From Alphaproteobacteria bacterium (GTDB lineage Bacteria; Pseudomonadota; Alphaproteobacteria; Ferrovibrionales; Ferrovibrionaceae): DNA of 64,000 nucleotides. Shown here one piece after another: positions 15,219-48,786 of the stretch (the stretch's first letter is position 1; each line of letters starts with the position of its first letter). Made by a program: the position numbers and the translations under genes. Location: the NCBI GenBank assembly GCA_017307375.1, contig JAFKFH010000016.1, forward strand, positions 124,001 through 188,000. The letters are read 5' to 3'. Under the pieces are notes generated by a model. That model was not told the origin of the DNA and made no database searches. It was given only the letters and a program-made list of their open reading frames with translations.

Positions 15219-15863
15219 CTATCCTGGCGCAGGCCGCGTGGCGATGTCGAGCATGGTGCGGCGGGTGGCAGCCTCCAGGCCGGCCAACTCGGCCGGTCGC
15301 CCGCGATTGGCGCCGACGAAGAAGGTCAGCCCCATCAGCTGCGAGACGATCAGCGCGGCGCGCAGGGTCAATTCGGCATCGTCGATCTCGGGCGCCAGGT
15401 CGCGAATCAGCCGGCGGATGGCGCGCCGGGCGCGCGCGAACATCTTCTCCATCACCTCGGCGGCGAATGCATCACGGCCGGCAAGCGCGCTCAGTTCGAA
15501 GAAGATCCCCTGGGTCGCCGACGATTTGACATCCTCGATGAAGAAGTCCATGGCGCCCAGGAACTGCTGTTCGCGCGACGCCTCGGGCATCGCACCGACG
15601 ATGCCGTCGATCGCCGTCTGGTAATTGTCGAAGGCGTGCATCAGCATCGCCTCGACCAGCGCATCCTTGGTCTTGTAGTAGTGCTGCACGGTACCGAGCG
15701 TGATGCCGAGCCGCGCTGCCACACCCCGCATCGACAGGGCGCCATAGCCGCCTTCGGCGAAGATGCCGCGCGCCGCATCGAGGATCTCGCGCGCCCGCTC
15801 GAACCCCTTGTCGGTCGTTTCCGACTCCTTGTGGCGCAGTGACTGCCTGACCGTGCCCTGCAT
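15219..15863 (-). CDS. TetR-family regulator of the adjacent acyl-CoA operon
   Basis: A 214-residue TetR repressor. The helix-turn-helix lies near residues 25-65 (GALSMRGVAARLGITLGTVQHYYKTKDALVEAML), followed by an all-helical ligand domain. The ATG at 15863 is chosen; a GTG at 15890 would add nine residues. It is divergent from the acyl-CoA operon at 15984, and the interval carries a perfect 20-base palindrome and a related copy, the expected operators. The ligand is probably an acyl-CoA of the pathway, by analogy with other TetR regulators of fatty-acid genes. It is followed 4 bases later by the S9A peptidase gene. Confidence 0.9.
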   Translation of the reverse strand: MQGTVRQSLRHKESETTDKGFERAREILDAARGIFAEGGYGALSMRGVAARLGITLGTVQHYYKTKDALVEAMLMHAFDNYQTAIDGIVGAMPEASREQQFLGAMDFFIEDVKSSATQGIFFELSALAGRDAFAAEVMEKMFARARRAIRRLIRDLAPEIDDAELTLRAALIVSQLMGLTFFVGANRGRPAELAGLEAATRRTMLDIATRPAPG

Positions 15864-15908
15864 GCCCGATTCGCTTCCGCCGTGGATCACGCCGTTCTAT
15901 CTACGCGA

Positions 15909-15936
15909 TTGACAAACCAGTCGCATGACTTATTCT
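15909..15936 (+). promoter_or_regulatory. Candidate sigma-70 promoter of the acyl-CoA operon
   Basis: TTGACA (15909-15914), a perfect -35 box, is followed after 16 bases by TATTCT (15931-15936), four of six matches to a -10 box. The upstream TetR-type operator fills the spacer between the boxes, a classic arrangement for repression. Transcription would start near 15943, inside or just before the second operator, about 40 bases upstream of the thiolase start. Confidence 0.6.
15915..15934. promoter_or_regulatory. Imperfect TetR-type operator copy (O1)
   Basis: AACCAGTCGCATGACTTATT repeats the left half and centre of the perfect palindrome at 15944-15963, 29 bases upstream of it. It occupies the spacer between the putative -35 and -10 boxes. 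Two sites at this spacing lie on nearly the same face of the helix and could bind two dimers cooperatively. Confidence 0.55.
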
Positions 15937-15943
15937 CGAGAAA

Positions 15944-15963
15944 AACCAGTCATATGACTGGTT
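15944..15963. promoter_or_regulatory. Perfect 20-base palindromic operator (O2)
   Basis: AACCAGTCATATGACTGGTT is identical to its own reverse complement. It sits 20 bases upstream of the thiolase start codon in the interval shared with the divergent TetR gene. Length, symmetry and position are those of a TetR-family operator. The TetR protein encoded at 15219-15863 is the probable ligand, controlling both the operon and itself. Confidence 0.7.
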
Positions 15964-15983
15964 ATAGGTGGAGGAAACAACGG

Positions 15984-17165
15984 ATGAGCAAGACCCTCGT
16001 CGCCGGCGTCGGCATGATCCCGTTCGCCAAGCCGGGCGCCAGCGCGCCTTATGACGAAATGGGTGCCCAGGCGACGGTGCTGGCGCTCAAGGATGCCGGC
16101 ATCGACTACGGCCAGATCCAGCAGGCCTATGTCGGCTATGTCTACGGCGACTCCACCTGCGGCCAGAAGGCGCTCTATCGCGTCGGCATGACCGGCATTC
16201 CGGTCGTCAACGTCAACAACAACTGCTCGACCGGGTCGACCGCCCTGTATCTCGCCCGCCAGGCCATCGAATCGGGTGCCGCCGACTGCGTGCTGGCGCT
16301 GGGCTTCGAGCAGATGAAGCCGGGCGCGCTGGGCTCGGTGTTCCAGGACCGGGTTTCGGCCTTCGCCGAATTCGACCGGGTCACCGACGATCTCGTCGGC
16401 ATGCCGGAAATTCCGCTGGCGCTGCGCTACTTCGGCGGGGCCGGGCGCGAGCACATGAAGAAATACGGCACCAAACTCGAAACCTTCGCCGAGATCCGCG
16501 CCAAGGCCAGCCGCCATGCGGCCAGGAACCCACTGGCCCTGTTCCGCAGCGAAGTGACGGCCGAGGACGTGATGAATGCGCCGGTGATCTGGCCTGGCAC
16601 GATGACCCGCCTGATGGCCTGTCCGCCGACCTGCGGCGGTGCCGCGGCGATCCTCGTCTCGGAGGCCTTTGCCAAGCGCCACGGCCTGCGCACCGATGTC
16701 GAGATCGCCGCACAGGCGATGACCACCGACTATGCCTCGACCTTCGAGTCCGGCGACATGATGAAACTTGTCGGCTTCGACATGGCCAAGGCCGCTGCGG
16801 CCAAAGTCTACGACCAGGCCGGCATCGGGCCCGATGAGATCAAGGTCGTCGAATTGCACGACTGCTTCGCCCAGAACGAACTGGTGACCTACGAGGCTCT
16901 CGGCCTCTGCCCCGAGGGCGGGGCGGCCAAGTTCGTCGCCGACGGCGACAACACCTATGGCGGCAAATACGTGACCAACCCGTCCGGCGGGCTCCTGTCG
17001 AAGGGACACCCGCTCGGCGCCACCGGCCTCGCCCAGTGCTACGAACTGACCCATCAGTTGCGCGGCACGGCCGAGGCGCGCCAGGTCGACGGCGCGCGCG
17101 TTGCGCTCCAGCACAATCTCGGCCTCGGCGGGGCCTGCGTGGTCACGCTGTATCGCGGGGCCTGA
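15984..17165 (+). CDS. SCP2/SCPx-type thiolase (acetyl-CoA acyltransferase-like)
   Basis: A 393-residue thiolase of the SCPx/lipid-transfer subfamily, expected to cleave 3-ketoacyl-CoA with CoA. The nucleophile is Cys81 in NNNCSTGSTAL. HDCFAQNELV and GHPLGATGLAQC carry the other catalytic motifs, and NLGLGGACVV ends the fold. The ATG at 15984 follows GGTGGAGG, a strong ribosome binding site; frames extending further upstream would cross the operators. It is first in a six-gene operon with two MaoC-type proteins, an SDR, a CoA ligase and an isomerase. SCPx thiolases often handle branched or steroid-derived acyl chains, but the substrate is not identified here. Confidence 0.92.
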   Translation: MSKTLVAGVGMIPFAKPGASAPYDEMGAQATVLALKDAGIDYGQIQQAYVGYVYGDSTCGQKALYRVGMTGIPVVNVNNNCSTGSTALYLARQAIESGAADCVLALGFEQMKPGALGSVFQDRVSAFAEFDRVTDDLVGMPEIPLALRYFGGAGREHMKKYGTKLETFAEIRAKASRHAARNPLALFRSEVTAEDVMNAPVIWPGTMTRLMACPPTCGGAAAILVSEAFAKRHGLRTDVEIAAQAMTTDYASTFESGDMMKLVGFDMAKAAAAKVYDQAGIGPDEIKVVELHDCFAQNELVTYEALGLCPEGGAAKFVADGDNTYGGKYVTNPSGGLLSKGHPLGATGLAQCYELTHQLRGTAEARQVDGARVALQHNLGLGGACVVTLYRGA

Positions 17166-17168
17166 GGC

Positions 17169-17612
17169 ATGATCGACAAGGCCCATGTCGGGCGGGAATT
17201 CCCCGCTCATTCGGTTGCCGTCGAGGCCGGCCGCCTGCGCTTCTTCGCCAAGGCGACCGGCCAGACCGATCCGGTCTATCTCGACGAGGCGGTGGCGCGC
17301 GATGCCGGCTATCGCGGCCTGCCGGTGCCGCCGACCTTCCTGTTCTCGCTCGACGTCGAGCAGCCCGATCCCTTCGCCTGGTTCAACGCGATCGGGCTCG
17401 ACCTGGCCAAGGTCCTGCATGGCGAACAGCTGTTCGTCTACCATGCCCCGGCCTGCGCCGGCGACGTGCTGACCTTTTCGTCGCGGATCAGCGATGTCTA
17501 CGACAAGAAGGGCGGCGCCCTCGATTTCGTGGTCAAGGAAACCCGCGTGACCAACCAGGACGGCGTGCATGTCGCCGACCTGCGCGCGACCATCGTCCAG
17601 CGCAACGCCTGA
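17169..17612 (+). CDS. MaoC-family dehydratase subunit, FAS1-type N-terminal hotdog
   Basis: A 147-residue single hotdog protein of the MaoC N-terminal type, with FAKATGQTDPVYLDE early and GLPVPPTFLF following. In this subfamily one hotdog often lacks the catalytic Asp/His pair and needs a partner. The next gene supplies a protein with the pair, so the two probably form a heteromeric enoyl-CoA hydratase. It starts 3 bases after the thiolase stop and ends 11 bases before the partner gene. Cytoplasmic. Confidence 0.88.
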   Translation: MIDKAHVGREFPAHSVAVEAGRLRFFAKATGQTDPVYLDEAVARDAGYRGLPVPPTFLFSLDVEQPDPFAWFNAIGLDLAKVLHGEQLFVYHAPACAGDVLTFSSRISDVYDKKGGALDFVVKETRVTNQDGVHVADLRATIVQRNA

Positions 17613-17623
17613 CGGAGACGTCC

Positions 17624-18031
17624 ATGTCTGCCAAGACCCCTGCCGCGGGCGATCGCCTGCCGGCCCTGGCGCTGCCGCCGGTCAATCGTACGACCCTGGC
17701 GCTGTTCGCCGGCGCGTCCGGCGACCATAATCCGATCCATATCGACATCGACTTTGCCCGCAAGGCCGGCATGCCCGACGTGTTCGCCCACGGCATGCTG
17801 TCGATGGCCTGGCTGGCCCGCCTGCTGACCGACTGGCAGCCGCAGTCGAAGCTGCGCCGCTTCAACGCCCGTTTCCTCGGCATCACTCACCTGGGCAACC
17901 AGATCACCTGCACCGGCGAGGTGACGGAGATCGTCGAGGAGAACGGCGAGCGGCTGGCGCGGGTCGAGATCCGCTCGGCCAACCAGTTCGGCGAAACCAA
18001 GATCCTGGGCGACGCCCTCGTCGCCCTCTGA
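17624..18031 (+). CDS. MaoC-family enoyl-CoA hydratase subunit with catalytic motif
   Basis: A 135-residue hotdog protein. The hydratase-2 motif is visible as FAGASGDHNPIHIDIDFARKAGMPDVFAHGML, with the Asp and His of D-H-N-P-I-H expected to activate water for addition to 2-enoyl-CoA. The ATG at 17624 follows GACGGAGACG. Paired with the preceding non-catalytic-looking hotdog protein, it probably makes a two-subunit (R)-specific hydratase as in steroid side-chain and SCPx-linked pathways. The SDR downstream would oxidise the product. Confidence 0.9.
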   Translation: MSAKTPAAGDRLPALALPPVNRTTLALFAGASGDHNPIHIDIDFARKAGMPDVFAHGMLSMAWLARLLTDWQPQSKLRRFNARFLGITHLGNQITCTGEVTEIVEENGERLARVEIRSANQFGETKILGDALVAL

Positions 18032-18044
18032 AGGAAGATGATCC

Positions 18045-18872
18045 ATGGCCAGACTGGCAGGAAAAGTAGCGCTGATCTCCGGCTCCGGCCGCGGCATCGG
18101 CCGTTCGATCGCGCTGAAGCTGGCGTCCGAAGGCGCACGGATCGTCGTCAACGATCTCGATGCCGACCCGGCCCATGAGGTGGTCGAGACGATCAGGGCG
18201 GCGGGCGGCGAGGCGGTGGCCTGCGTCGGCTCGGTCACCGCGACCGATTTTCCCGAACGCTTCGTCCGTACCGCCGTCGATACCTGGCGCAGCGTCGACA
18301 TCATCGTCAACAACGCCGGCTATACCTGGGATTCGGTCATCCAGAAGATGACCGACGAGCAGTGGTACGCGATGATGGACGTACATCTGACCGCGCCGTT
18401 CCGCATCCTGCGCGCTGCCCAGCCGGTGATCCGGCAACTGGCCAAGCTGGACCAGGATGCCGGGCGCGAGGTATTCCGCAAGGTCGTCAACATCTCGTCG
18501 GTCGCGGGGCTGGGCGGCAATGCCGGCCAGACCAATTATTCGGCGGCCAAGGCCGGCATCGTCGGCATGACGCTCACCCTGGCCAAGGAGTGGGGCCGGA
18601 TGAAGGTCAACGTGAACTGCGTCGCCTTCGGTTTCATTCGCACCCGCCTGACCGAGGCGACGGCGGCCGAGCAGGCGTCGATCAATGTCGAGGGCCGCGA
18701 GATCAAGGTCGGCGTCAATCCGGAACTGGTGAAGATGCTGGAACGCACCATCCCGCTTGGCCGTGCCGGCACCACCGAGGAAGCGGCGGGCGCGGTCTAC
18801 CTGCTGTGCACGCCCGAGTCCGACTACATCAGCGGCCAGACCATCGTCTGCGGCGGGGGCGTGTCGATCTGA
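18045..18872 (+). CDS. Short-chain dehydrogenase/reductase (3-hydroxyacyl-CoA dehydrogenase-like)
   Basis: A 275-residue classical SDR. It has the nucleotide-binding SGSGRGIGRSIA (residues about 12-23), NNAG, a catalytic Ser in NISSV, and YSAAK carrying the Tyr and Lys. The acidic NDLDAD after beta-2 favours NAD(H). In this operon it most likely oxidises the (R)-3-hydroxyacyl-CoA made by the MaoC pair to the 3-keto substrate of the thiolase. A short insertion around residues 205-235 before the C-terminal cofactor-closing strand is slightly unusual. Confidence 0.9.
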   Translation: MARLAGKVALISGSGRGIGRSIALKLASEGARIVVNDLDADPAHEVVETIRAAGGEAVACVGSVTATDFPERFVRTAVDTWRSVDIIVNNAGYTWDSVIQKMTDEQWYAMMDVHLTAPFRILRAAQPVIRQLAKLDQDAGREVFRKVVNISSVAGLGGNAGQTNYSAAKAGIVGMTLTLAKEWGRMKVNVNCVAFGFIRTRLTEATAAEQASINVEGREIKVGVNPELVKMLERTIPLGRAGTTEEAAGAVYLLCTPESDYISGQTIVCGGGVSI

Positions 18873-18919
18873 CCTGCCGGCCCATCTCATAAAGAAAAGA
18901 CATTGCCAGGGAGGCGACC

Positions 18920-20482
18920 ATGACGATCAATCTGACCCAGGGGCTGCACAGGGCATTGCAGCGCAACCCGAACGGCACGGCAACGGTGTTCCAGGGCCGG
19001 CGCCACAGTTTTGCGACCTTCGCCGACCGCGTCGCCCGGCTGGCGGCCGCCCTGCGCGCCGCCGGCATGGGCATCGGCGATCGCATTGGCATGCTGTCGC
19101 TGAATTCCGATCGCTACCTCGAATATTATCTCGCCGTGCCCTGGGGCGGCGGCATCGTCAATCCCTGCAACATCAGGTGGAGTGCGGCCGAGGTCGCCTA
19201 TTCGCTCGACGACTGCGACACCCGGATCCTGATCGTCGACGACGCCTTCCTGGCCATGGCGGGCGAGCTGAAGCAGCGCTCGAAGTCGTTGCGCCTGCTG
19301 ATTCATGCCGGCGACGGTCCGGCGCCCGAAGGCATGCTGTCCTACGAAGCGATTCTGGCTGCCGCGACGCCGATCGACGACGTGCGGCGCGCCGGCGATG
19401 ACGTGATGGGCGTGTTCTACACCGGCGGCACGACCGGATTTCCCAAGGGTGTCGCCCTGACCCATGCCAGCATCTTCGCCTCGTCGCTGGCCCTGACCGC
19501 CGATCTTGCCTGGCCGCAGGACGCCGTCTACCTCCATGCCGCGCCGATGTTCCACATGGCCGATACCGCCTTCGGCTTCGCCCAGGTCATCCGCGGCGGC
19601 ACCCATGTGGTCATCCCGGGCTTCACGCCGCAGGCGACGTTGCAGGCGCTGCAGGACGAGAAGGTCACGACGGTGCTGCTGGTGCCGACGATGATCCAGA
19701 TGACGGTCGATCACCCCGATATCGCCGGGTATGACCTGTCGCGGCTACGCACCGTGGTCTACGGTGCCTCGCCGATCAGCGAGGCGGTGCTGCGCCGCGC
19801 GATGGCAGCCATTCCCTCGGCCGGATTCGTGCAGGCTTATGGCATGACCGAGCTTTCGCCGGTGGCGACCGTGCTGCCCGCCGACTGGCACGTGCTGGAC
19901 GGACCGAAGGCCGGCAAGCTGCGCGCCGCCGGCCGGGCGGCGCTGTGCTGCGAGGTGCGCATCGTCGACAACGAGGGGCGCGAAGTGCCGCGCGGCACGG
20001 TGGGCGAAGTGGCGGTGCGCGGCCCGAACGTGATGAAGGAATACTGGAACCAGCCCGAGCTGACCGCCAACGCGGTGCGCGACGGCTGGATGCATACCGG
20101 CGACGGCGCCTACATGGACGACGAAGGTTTCATCTACGTCGTCGACCGCATGAAGGACATGATTGTTTCCGGCGGCGAGAACGTCTATTCGGCCGAGGTC
20201 GAGAACGCCCTGATGCAGCATCGCGGCGTGGCGATGTGCGCCGTGATCGCGGTGCCCGACCCGAAATGGGGCGAGCGGGTGCACGCCGTCATCGTCAGGC
20301 GGGCCGGTGCCGAGATGACGGGAGACGACCTGGTCGAGCATTGCCGCACCCTGATCGCCGGCTATAAATGCCCGCGCAGCGTCGAGTTCCGCGACGCCCT
20401 GCCGATCTCGGGTGCCGGCAAGATCCTGAAGGCGCAGTTGCGCGAGCCCTACTGGGCCGACGCGGCCCGCAAGGTGAACTGA
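18920..20482 (+). CDS. Fatty acyl-CoA synthetase (AMP-forming)
   Basis: A 520-residue AMP-forming ligase of the FadD/ACS superfamily that activates a carboxylic acid to its CoA thioester with ATP. The P-loop-like YTGGTTGFPKGV lies near residues 170-182, QAYGMTELSP near 306, GWMHTGDGAYMD near 390 and the hinge DRMKDMIVSGGENVYSAEVE near 410. The catalytic lysine in SGAGKILKAQLR is near the C-terminus. The start follows GGGAGGCGACC, and 47 bases separate it from the SDR. It probably provides the entry step of the pathway. Overlap of its stop with the next ATG indicates coupling. Confidence 0.93.
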   Translation: MTINLTQGLHRALQRNPNGTATVFQGRRHSFATFADRVARLAAALRAAGMGIGDRIGMLSLNSDRYLEYYLAVPWGGGIVNPCNIRWSAAEVAYSLDDCDTRILIVDDAFLAMAGELKQRSKSLRLLIHAGDGPAPEGMLSYEAILAAATPIDDVRRAGDDVMGVFYTGGTTGFPKGVALTHASIFASSLALTADLAWPQDAVYLHAAPMFHMADTAFGFAQVIRGGTHVVIPGFTPQATLQALQDEKVTTVLLVPTMIQMTVDHPDIAGYDLSRLRTVVYGASPISEAVLRRAMAAIPSAGFVQAYGMTELSPVATVLPADWHVLDGPKAGKLRAAGRAALCCEVRIVDNEGREVPRGTVGEVAVRGPNVMKEYWNQPELTANAVRDGWMHTGDGAYMDDEGFIYVVDRMKDMIVSGGENVYSAEVENALMQHRGVAMCAVIAVPDPKWGERVHAVIVRRAGAEMTGDDLVEHCRTLIAGYKCPRSVEFRDALPISGAGKILKAQLREPYWADAARKVN

Positions 20483-21279
20483 TGGCCTACGACACCATTC
20501 TGGTCGATCGGAGGGATGACGGCGTCGTCACGGTGACGATGAACCGGCCCGATCGCCTGAACGCGCTGAACGACCGGATGGTCGAGGAACTGCGCGATGC
20601 CTTCACCGGCTTCGCGCGCTCGATGCCGCGGGTGCTGGTCCTGACCGGGGCCGGTCGCGGCTTCTGCGCCGGGGCCGACCTGCTCGCCTCGACCTTCGAG
20701 GGGGAGGGCGATCGCGGCGAGACCGTCGCCGCGTCGATGAAGGCCCGGTTCAACCCGATGGTCGAAGCGCTGCATGCGGTACCCTGCCCGAAGATCGCCG
20801 CGGTGAACGGCGTCGCGGCCGGTGGCGGGGCAAGCCTCGCGCTGCTTTGCGATCTCGTCGTCGCCGCGCGCTCGGCCAGCTTCATCCAGGTCTTCGGTCC
20901 GAAGCTCGGTCTGGTGCCCGATCTCGGCGGGACCTGGGTCTTGCCGCGGCTGGTCGGGCGGCAGCGCGCGCGGGGTCTGGCCTTGCTCGGCGACAGGATC
21001 GATGCCGAAACCGCGGCCCAGTGGGGGCTGATCTGGCAGGCAGTCGCCGACGACGCCCTGGCGGCGACGGTCGCCGGCCTGGCCGACCGGCTCAAGGCCG
21101 GCCCGACCCGCGCCTTCCATCAGATCGGCATCGAGCTCGATGCCGCACTCGACAACGATCTGCCCGCCCAGCTCGAACGCGAGCGCCAGGCACAGCGCAA
21201 GCTTGCCGGGACCGCCGATTTCGCGGAGGCGCTGAAGGCTTTCGCCGACAAGCGCCCGCCGCGCTTCGAGAACAGGTAG
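20482..21279 (+). CDS. PaaG-like enoyl-CoA hydratase/isomerase
   Basis: A 265-residue crotonase-fold protein whose ATG shares one base with the CoA ligase stop (TGATG). The oxyanion-hole segments are GAGRGFCAGADL and NGVAAGGGASLAL. The stretch KLGLVPDLGGTWVLPRLVG followed by GLALLGDRIDAETAAQWGLIWQAV closely matches PaaG, an isomerase with a single catalytic Asp (here about Asp147) in place of the two hydratase glutamates. A delta3-delta2 enoyl-CoA isomerase role is therefore more likely than hydration, which the MaoC pair would perform. It is the last gene of the operon. Confidence 0.88.
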   Translation: MAYDTILVDRRDDGVVTVTMNRPDRLNALNDRMVEELRDAFTGFARSMPRVLVLTGAGRGFCAGADLLASTFEGEGDRGETVAASMKARFNPMVEALHAVPCPKIAAVNGVAAGGGASLALLCDLVVAARSASFIQVFGPKLGLVPDLGGTWVLPRLVGRQRARGLALLGDRIDAETAAQWGLIWQAVADDALAATVAGLADRLKAGPTRAFHQIGIELDAALDNDLPAQLERERQAQRKLAGTADFAEALKAFADKRPPRFENR

Positions 21280-47319: not shown

Positions 47320-48786
47320 ATGAGCGACTTCCAACCCGGCCGCATCGACTCGTTTGCCGACGCCACCGTGCTGATCCTCGGCGATGTCATGCTCGACCGC
47401 TACATCCATGGCCGGGTCGACAGGATGTCGCCGGAGGCGCCGATTCCGGTGCTGGCGATCGAATGGGAAAACGCCATGGCGGGCGGGGCGGGCAATGTCG
47501 CCCGGAACGTCGCCGGGCTCGGCGCGCGTGCCATTCTGGTCGGCCTCGTCGGCGCCGACGAGGCGGGCCGCGAACTCGCCCGTCTGCTGAAGCTGACGCC
47601 GCGGGTCGATGCCCGGCTGGTGACCGATACGTCGCGGCCGACCACCGCCAAGACCCGCTTCGTCGCCGGGCGCCAGCAATTGCTGCGCGCTGACGCCGAG
47701 CAGACGGCGGTGCCGGCAGCGGCGGGGGTCGATGCCCTGATGGTGGAATTCCGCCGGGCGCTGGGCGAGGCCGACGTGGTCGTCTTGTCCGACTATGCCA
47801 AGGGGGTGCTGGGCGACGCGTTGCTCGGCCAAGCCATTGCCGCCGCCCGGCAAGCCGGCAAGCCGATCGTAACCGATCCGAAAAGCCGCGATTTCACGCG
47901 CTATCGCGGGTCGTCGATCATCACGCCCAACCGGTCGGAATTCGCCGCGGCATCGGGCGTGCACAGCCGCGATGCCGCGGCGATCGCGACCGGTGCCCGT
48001 GCGCTGATCGAGGCTGCCGGGATCGATGCGATCCTCGTCACCCGTGGCGAGGATGGCATGTCGCTGATCGCCGGCAGTGCCGGCGATCCCGCGCTCGACC
48101 TTGCCACCGAGGCGCGTGAAGTGTTCGACGTGTCGGGTGCCGGCGATACCGTCGTCGCGGTCCTGGCGGTCGCCCGCGCCGCCGGTGCGGACTGGGCCGA
48201 GGCCGCGCGCCTCGCCAATACCGCTGCCGGCATCGCCGTCGCCAAGGCCGGCACCGCCGTCGTCTATCCGGCCGAACTGACGCGGGCGCTGCATGCCACC
48301 GAGGTGCTGTCCACCGACGCCAAGATCGTCACGCTGGACGAGGCGATGGAGCGTGTGGCGCTGTGGCGGGCGCGGCGCGAACGCGTCGGCTTCACCAATG
48401 GCTGCTTCGACCTGATCCATCCCGGCCATATCTCGCTGATCGGCCAGGCGCGCGCCGCCTGCGACCGGCTGATCGTCGGCCTGAATTCCGATGCCTCGGT
48501 GCGCCGGCTGAAAGGCGAGACCCGGCCGGTGCAGAACGAGACCGCGCGCGCGATCGTGCTGGCCTCGCTGGCCCATGTCGACCTCGTCGTCGTCTTCGGC
48601 GAGGATACGCCGATCGAGCTGATCGCGGCGCTTCGGCCCGACGTGCTGGTCAAGGGGGCCGACTATACCGTCGACAAGGTCGTCGGCTCGGATCTGGTGC
48701 GATCCTACGGCGGCCGGGTGGTGCTTGCGGATCTCGTTCCCGGCCAGTCGACGACGCGCACGGTTGCACGCATCGCAGGAGGCTGA
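47320..48786 (+). CDS. hldE: Bifunctional heptose-7-phosphate kinase/heptose-1-phosphate adenylyltransferase
   Basis: A 488-residue fusion making ADP-glycero-manno-heptose for the lipopolysaccharide inner core. The N-terminal PfkB kinase domain (about 1-320) has LILGDVMLDRYIHG, GGAGNVARNVAGLG and the anion-hole DVSGAGDTVVAV. The C-terminal nucleotidyltransferase (about 345-488) has GFTNGCFDLIHPGHI and VKGADYTVD. The ATG at 47320 begins the conserved sequence. It is followed 3 bases later by hldD. gmhA and gmhB are not in the window. Confidence 0.96.
   Translation: MSDFQPGRIDSFADATVLILGDVMLDRYIHGRVDRMSPEAPIPVLAIEWENAMAGGAGNVARNVAGLGARAILVGLVGADEAGRELARLLKLTPRVDARLVTDTSRPTTAKTRFVAGRQQLLRADAEQTAVPAAAGVDALMVEFRRALGEADVVVLSDYAKGVLGDALLGQAIAAARQAGKPIVTDPKSRDFTRYRGSSIITPNRSEFAAASGVHSRDAAAIATGARALIEAAGIDAILVTRGEDGMSLIAGSAGDPALDLATEAREVFDVSGAGDTVVAVLAVARAAGADWAEAARLANTAAGIAVAKAGTAVVYPAELTRALHATEVLSTDAKIVTLDEAMERVALWRARRERVGFTNGCFDLIHPGHISLIGQARAACDRLIVGLNSDASVRRLKGETRPVQNETARAIVLASLAHVDLVVVFGEDTPIELIAALRPDVLVKGADYTVDKVVGSDLVRSYGGRVVLADLVPGQSTTRTVARIAGG

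Follow-up and report, generated by a model that had tools for sequence, protein, structure and literature searches.

In the TetR paradigm, twin operators occupy the intergenic region between divergent genes (PMC3511530), and palindromes serve as TetR sites (PMC7022988). We analysed a tetR-like gene divergent from an acyl-CoA operon in a 64-kb stretch of DNA, hereafter the window, and several described systems resemble it. The TetR-tetO system is presented as a dimeric repressor with a divergent target, two palindromic operators and a short intergenic region (PMC3511530), as in the window; its operators are 15 bp long, its target is efflux and its ligand is tetracycline, whereas the window has 20-bp sites 29 bp apart in front of a beta-oxidation operon. 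AtuR/RdmA of Pseudomonas, set beside our protein by description, is reported as a TetR repressor encoded divergently to genes of acyl-CoA catabolism, with two inverted repeats by the -10 box, but its sites are AGCAAGCGCTTGG and CCAAGCGCTTGCT, with a spacer of 40-42 bp (PMC9973270). FadP, likewise compared by description, is a TetR repressor of an adjacent beta-oxidation operon in Burkholderiales, the order that also harbors the relatives of our regulator, and may be an ortholog of it; in Ralstonia solanacearum it is reported to control about 12 operons (PMC5343134, PMC12543098), and the exact motif found here has one or two sites per genome where present. EdcR and KstR are depicted as TetR repressors of ring and side-chain (steroid) catabolism with palindromic operators, and those of EdcR overlap the -10 box as in the window, although the EdcR palindrome TnnCnnTACnAnTnGTAnnGnnA differs (PMC8700777). 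PsrA-type regulators share palindromic half-sites with a short centre, and autoregulation, but their described motif is G/CAAAC(N2-4)GTTTG/C (PMC10304680). On these published descriptions, AtuR/RdmA, EdcR, KstR, PsrA and FadP are functional analogues. No study of a TetR/SCP2-thiolase divergon with the motif described below was found among the open-licence papers listed, a scope that makes this weak evidence of novelty.

The features of the locus are as follows.

15219..15863, minus strand: TetR-family regulator gene, 214 aa, P0001 (TetR_N, 7.3e-14)
15896..15901, minus strand: possible tetR -10, GATAGA, inferred by eye from intergenic regions
15909..15914, plus strand: -35 TTGACA of the thiolase-operon promoter (promoter scan)
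15915..15934, plus strand: O2, imperfect candidate operator AACCAGTCGCATGACTTATT, identical to O1 at 16 of 20 bases
15931..15936, plus strand: -10 TATTCT of the thiolase-operon promoter (promoter scan), overlapping the right end of O2
15944..15963, no strand assigned: O1, perfect 20-bp palindrome AACCAGTCATATGACTGGTT, covering the expected transcription start
15970..15975, plus strand: GGAGGA, resembling a ribosome-binding site, ahead of the thiolase ATG (by eye)
15984..17165, plus strand: SCP2-type thiolase ("lipid-transfer protein"; NF006102, 696 bits, cut-off 436)
17169..17612, plus strand: MaoC-type hydratase subunit, HadA-like (profile searches)
17618..18031, plus strand: MaoC-type hydratase subunit, HadB-like (searched from 17621, one codon past the start)
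18045..18872, plus strand: SDR dehydrogenase (profile search)
18920..20482, plus strand: AMP-forming acyl-CoA ligase (profile searches)
20482..21279, plus strand: enoyl-CoA hydratase/isomerase (profile searches)

The first-pass annotation had placed the palindrome between a TetR gene and an acyl-CoA operon, and profile matches bear this out for both neighbours. P0001 carries a TetR_N helix-turn-helix (PF00440, 51.7 bits against a cut-off of 24); we chose by eye the ATG at 15863 as its start rather than the GTG at 15890, because the latter would overlap the likely tetR promoter. The thiolase also matches the SCP2-thiolase type-1 in the PDB (E 1e-141), and no acyl-CoA dehydrogenase was found among the six operon genes (15984..21279). 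P0001 scored 38.7 bits with the NCBIfam equivalog model of KstR, well below the cut-off of 280, and 30.3 bits with the NCBIfam model of Vibrio PsrA (cut-off 300). A single-sequence AlphaFold model of the protein reached a mean pLDDT of 71.5, with a poor DNA-binding part, and its best Foldseek match was BkaR (E 7.8e-3), with KstR, EthR and FasR also among the highest-ranking matches. As these matches are too weak, we name no ligand from the fold. A methylmalonyl-CoA mutase encoded nearby is closest to Azospirillum, at 76-79% in the best 8 of 430 plasmid records, which makes an alphaproteobacterial source probable.

O1 is identical to its own reverse complement, as had been claimed, and it is the sole match to AACCAGTCATATGACTGGTT in the window at up to three mismatches. 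The claim that such a palindrome is very unlikely by chance proved too strong for the window as a whole, which contains three perfect 20-base palindromes (at 15944, 21126 and 47544) against a mean of 0.33 and a maximum of 3 in 150 dinucleotide shuffles. It stood for the 120-bp intergenic region, where only 1 of 20,000 shuffles yielded a perfect palindrome. The other two palindromes, one inside the enoyl-CoA hydratase gene (21126-21145) and one at 47544-47563, are probably chance occurrences in GC-rich sequence. The three palindromes in 64 kb also lend something to the idea that O1 itself is accidental, or else an RNA hairpin or mRNA leader element. We find this barely credible, given the intergenic shuffles, a partial copy whose distance matches that in orthologous loci and the lack of any terminator-like match in our scan.

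That partial copy, O2, lies 29 bp upstream of O1, so that the segment 15909-15963 reads TTGACA, AACCAGTCGCATGACTTATT, CTCGAGAAA, AACCAGTCATATGACTGGTT. O2 differs from AACCAGTCANNTGACTGGTT at three positions. The first-pass annotation had located the copy inside the spacer of TTGACA/TATTCT, which is correct with the nuance that O2 occupies the whole 16-nt spacer and that its final four bases fall in the -10 box. This promoter, TTGACA-16-TATTCT, is the sole promoter-like match between 15800 and 16100 (10 of 12 positions). Two palindromic sites, one perfect and one imperfect, with the half-site CCAGTC and an 8-4-8 geometry, thus overlie the thiolase promoter; O1 ends 20 bp before the likely start codon, and the two ATG codons are 120 bp apart in sequence of 50% GC, which puts the divergent target within 200 bp.

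These positions, read directly from the sequence, lead us to propose, with a probability of roughly 85%, that O1 and O2 are operators of the divergent TetR protein, acting as a repressor that would switch an acid-breakdown operon. In the absence of inducer, TetR dimers would occupy both sites: O2, which lies between the -35 and -10 boxes of the thiolase promoter and coincides with the region where the tetR -35 is expected, and O1, at the place where transcription is expected to begin. RNA polymerase would thereby be kept off the catabolic operon, and tetR expression itself would probably be limited. With the spacer taken up by O2 and the presumed start by O1, polymerase should be excluded whichever of the two sites holds a dimer. 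O2 is probably imperfect because its right arm doubles as the -10 box. Autoregulation is probable from the GATAAT-like tetR -10, assigned by eye, with O2 over its -35 region; the candidate -10 at 15896..15901 gave no match in the promoter scan, and in many orthologous loci ATTATC (GATAAT on the other strand) stands to the left of the second site, at about the place of GATAGA in the window. The ligand that would free TetR may be a small acyl or aryl-acyl compound; the likeliest candidates are the CoA thioesters or acids that the operon would degrade. It is very unlikely, in our judgement, that TetR binds these sites to activate, or that it regulates only its own gene while the thiolase operon is controlled otherwise. 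Some TetR proteins, for example AtrA, are indeed described as activators, but the same source reports that a TetR protein less than 200 bp from its divergent neighbour mostly represses it (PMC3511530), and the gap here is 120 bp. Moreover, O2 between the -35 and -10 boxes and O1 over the expected start occupy polymerase-blocking positions.

Relatives of P0001 are rare around the window. With a threshold of E 1e-20, its own genome encodes a single P0001-like protein (all 90 candidates scored), and none was found in the 17 other genomes of its family. Samples of the class and of the phylum, scored on the best seven candidates or fewer per genome, yielded relatives in 3 of 385 class genomes including its own (the two others, among 384, at 32-35% identity) and in its own genome only among 398 of the phylum. 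A search of genome contigs with P0001 returned one partial relative. Relatives are present, in contrast, in the Burkholderiales family to which an Oxalobacteraceae metagenome-assembled genome (L004) belongs, where 53 of 294 genomes have one; L004 itself has a partial match (71 residues at 61%), and the other 52 proteins are 40-52% identical to P0001. We compared the best 30 of these 53 loci, which are not independent, as several are near-identical (L085, L087, L088 and L093-L096 are close relatives). In 27 of them the tetR gene is divergent from a thiolase gene whose product shares 76-83% identity with the window's; in the other three it is divergent from an SDR gene (L097, 74%) or an acyl-CoA dehydrogenase gene (L086, L091). 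In a phylogenetic tree, the thiolases of the window, of L015 and of the 27 Burkholderiales loci form one group (29 rows, 91/90). L015 comes from the window's own family, with no TetR gene beside its thiolase. This single group across classes makes a move between classes likely. The TetR tree did not resolve the branching of the window protein, three other proteins with Thr at residue 58 and the rest.

A site of the same geometry accompanies the TetR gene in the Burkholderiales loci. The pattern NNTAGGTC-N4-GACCTANN occurs upstream of it at 11-12 of 12 positions in 26 of the 30 loci; of the rest, L099, L102 and L107 reach 10, and L091, in which two CGGTC-type sites stand 34 bp from each other, reaches 9. 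All but four of the 26 loci (L079, L080, L086 and L097), hence 22, also carry a second, weaker site (at least 8 of 12), displaced by 27-32 bp towards the TetR gene. None of the 26 has such a site at the mirrored place, and 0.35 are expected by base shuffling. TTGACA abuts this second site in orthologs including L083, L089, L105 and L106, and the right arm of the site forms a TATAAT-like -10 (GACCTATAAT in most orthologs, GACCTATAAAT in L106). The order in such loci, TTGACA, second site, stronger site, is that of the window (TTGACA, O2/TATTCT, O1). The window thus has the layout of the Burkholderiales divergon, i.e., a related TetR gene divergent from the thiolase gene and two sites with a 29-bp spacing, but with the half-site CCAGTC instead of TAGGTC. 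Many orthologs, such as L084, L090, L092, L098, L099, L102, L103 and L105-L107, carry at the TetR-side site a fixed defect, AATAGTAC-N4-GACCTATA, rather than a full palindrome, perhaps a promoter constraint.

The first-pass annotation had made homologous operons decisive for its motif, and these divide by lineage. In the window's own class we found 27 other thiolase loci, and neither this TetR gene nor the palindrome occurs in any of them within the 1.5-kb flank, one (L023) having a masked stretch upstream, while the Burkholderiales loci carry the related site. The palindrome thus accompanies the TetR gene, as expected of an operator, and the comparison of loci supports its reading as a TetR-linked regulatory motif. 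Among distant relatives, for which we inspected L004, a pair of class genomes and 5 of 15 plasmid records, the motif is present in L004, in Eleftheria (L009, before a thiolase gene in the TetR-bearing stretch), in Sinorhizobium (L010, with two copies at a distance of 25 bp) and, imperfectly, in Burkholderia (L011 and L013); it was not clearly seen in L007, L008 and L012. A Variovorax locus (L137) has no such site between its tetR gene and a divergent SDR gene, and its TetR protein is absent from the P0001 matches among plasmid records. We judged a look-alike, CCCCGGTCATATGACCTTGG, 236 bp upstream of an own-class thiolase gene (L020), to be a chance occurrence; that locus has no TetR match. In another own-class locus (L035), a different divergent TetR protein of the TetR_C_24 type is found, with a palindrome of its own, TTTACCGACTGATCGGTAAA, at 1409-1428 before the thiolase gene, which suggests that thiolase operons swap regulators yet retain the design.

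We then counted the exact 16-mer ortholog pattern, TAGGTCNNNNGACCTA, in 92 genomes sampled from the 294. It is present in nine, namely, 8 of the 14 TetR-bearing genomes versus 1 of the 78 without the regulator (Fisher p 2.7e-7), and absent from the remaining 6 TetR-bearing genomes. As 9 of the 14 had helped define the motif, this agreement is partly built in; among the five outside the definition, the proportion is 2 of 5 versus 1 of 78 (p 0.009), both sites lying beside the TetR gene. The single pattern-bearing genome without the regulator (G773) has a more distant TetR gene (26%) beside its site, and G822 carries its site not beside the TetR gene but before an acyl-CoA dehydrogenase gene. 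In 12 chosen TetR-bearing genomes, the pattern was found in 11, with one or two sites each and always one at the TetR gene; since these genomes were selected with sites already known, that count is no independent test of presence. Only two sites there are away from the TetR gene (in G951 and G918). With so few exact sites elsewhere, the regulator appears to be local rather than global, as far as exact sites show. At L130, the site at 1501-1516, TAGGTCATATGACCTA, stands beside the gene for a TetR protein 26% identical to P0001, together with a divergent AraC-type gene; the motif thus extends past the thiolase divergon.

A genome scan for further copies, as the first-pass annotation had proposed, yielded one more exact core site in the window's own genome and nothing larger in relaxed searches. 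The core ACCAGTC-N4-GACTGGT (ACCAGTCNNNNGACTGGT) occurs exactly twice in the 7.54 Mb. Allowing two mismatches reveals no enrichment (26 sites per strand versus 109 for the reversed control), and we rejected a larger regulon for that reason. The core is found in 5 of 385 class genomes, with seven sites in total including the two of its own genome. Three of the five others lie within apparent reading frames, and the remaining two are ACCAGTCCTAAGACTGGT, present twice in a small genome (G367; L061 and L062) in sequence shared in opposite orientation (111 shared 30-mers). The second site of the window's genome is on another contig, C13:

C13:16034-16053: second site, GACCAGTCAGGTGACTGGTC, 22 bp before the likely ATG of a periplasmic binding protein gene

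This ATG was chosen by eye; the longest reading frame has a TTG start that precedes the site. The operon encodes the binding protein, two permeases, an ATPase, a second ATPase (by eye) and, at its end, an AMP-forming ligase. The best solved structural relatives of the binding protein include 4ey3, which we take to bind aromatic acids. Elsewhere on C13 (L063, 1-9543), near the site, we noted by eye an aromatic-acid-like cluster comprising a ring-cleavage dioxygenase-like gene, a hydrolase, a CoA ligase, an FAD monooxygenase and an IclR-type regulator. The two core sites hint at a small regulon of two loci in this genome. TetR would probably also control the C13 operon, with its ABC importer and CoA ligase, making one switch for the import, activation and beta-oxidation of a single acid type.

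The C13 site also bears on whether O1 and O2 might serve another dimeric regulator, encoded elsewhere, instead of the adjacent TetR. A tblastn search of C13:1-22000 found no P0001-like gene (its sole match covered 24 residues, at E 0.15), and CCAGTC departs from the TAGGTC of the orthologs with Asn at residue 58 (24 of 27 loci at 11/12 or better), as would be expected if the sites belonged to a different protein. We nevertheless consider this improbable, because the 8-4-8 geometry, the spacing, the order and the promoter overlap all match the ortholog divergons, and because P0001 has no close paralog in its genome at E 1e-20. Operation by the adjacent TetR thus remains the preferred reading.

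The difference in half-sites led us to consider a rule whereby Asn58 reads TAGGTC and Thr58 reads a C as the fourth base of the half-site. Of the 12 half-sites that we attributed to Thr58 proteins (O1 of the window and the C13 site included, O2 excluded), 9 have C there, versus none of the 58 attributed to Asn58 proteins; the Asn58 sites, however, were picked by their TAGGTC score, with the Asn58 loci L099, L102 and L107 omitted as falling below the cut. The rule is contradicted by L130, where the 26%-identical TetR protein has Thr at this position beside the site given above, and by L131, in a Thr58 genome (G822), with TAGGTCACATGACCTA before the acyl-CoA dehydrogenase gene. We keep it as a working idea only.

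The proposed switch is of an ordinary kind, its layout being common to distantly related bacteria with a different operator sequence. A bolder scenario, which we advance tentatively and do not favor, is that an old TetR/SCP2-thiolase switch crossed proteobacterial classes with its entire two-operator promoter, that its DNA code was rewritten, and that it captured the unlinked importer/CoA-ligase operon. In that scenario, the change from TAGGTC to CCAGTC may have gone alongside that from Ser-Asn to Gly57-Thr58 in the recognition helix, and if true, it would offer a natural, testable case of repressor/operator co-evolution with the promoter geometry held constant. The analysis provides a precise candidate operator pair for a TetR branch for which no study was found among the open-licence papers listed, and links that branch, in two classes of Proteobacteria, with operons for SCP2-type thiolases. 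The predicted two-locus regulon, joining import and activation to beta-oxidation, narrows the search for the inducer, and related repressors with differing operators on a similar promoter would be useful for work on TetR specificity or for biosensors.
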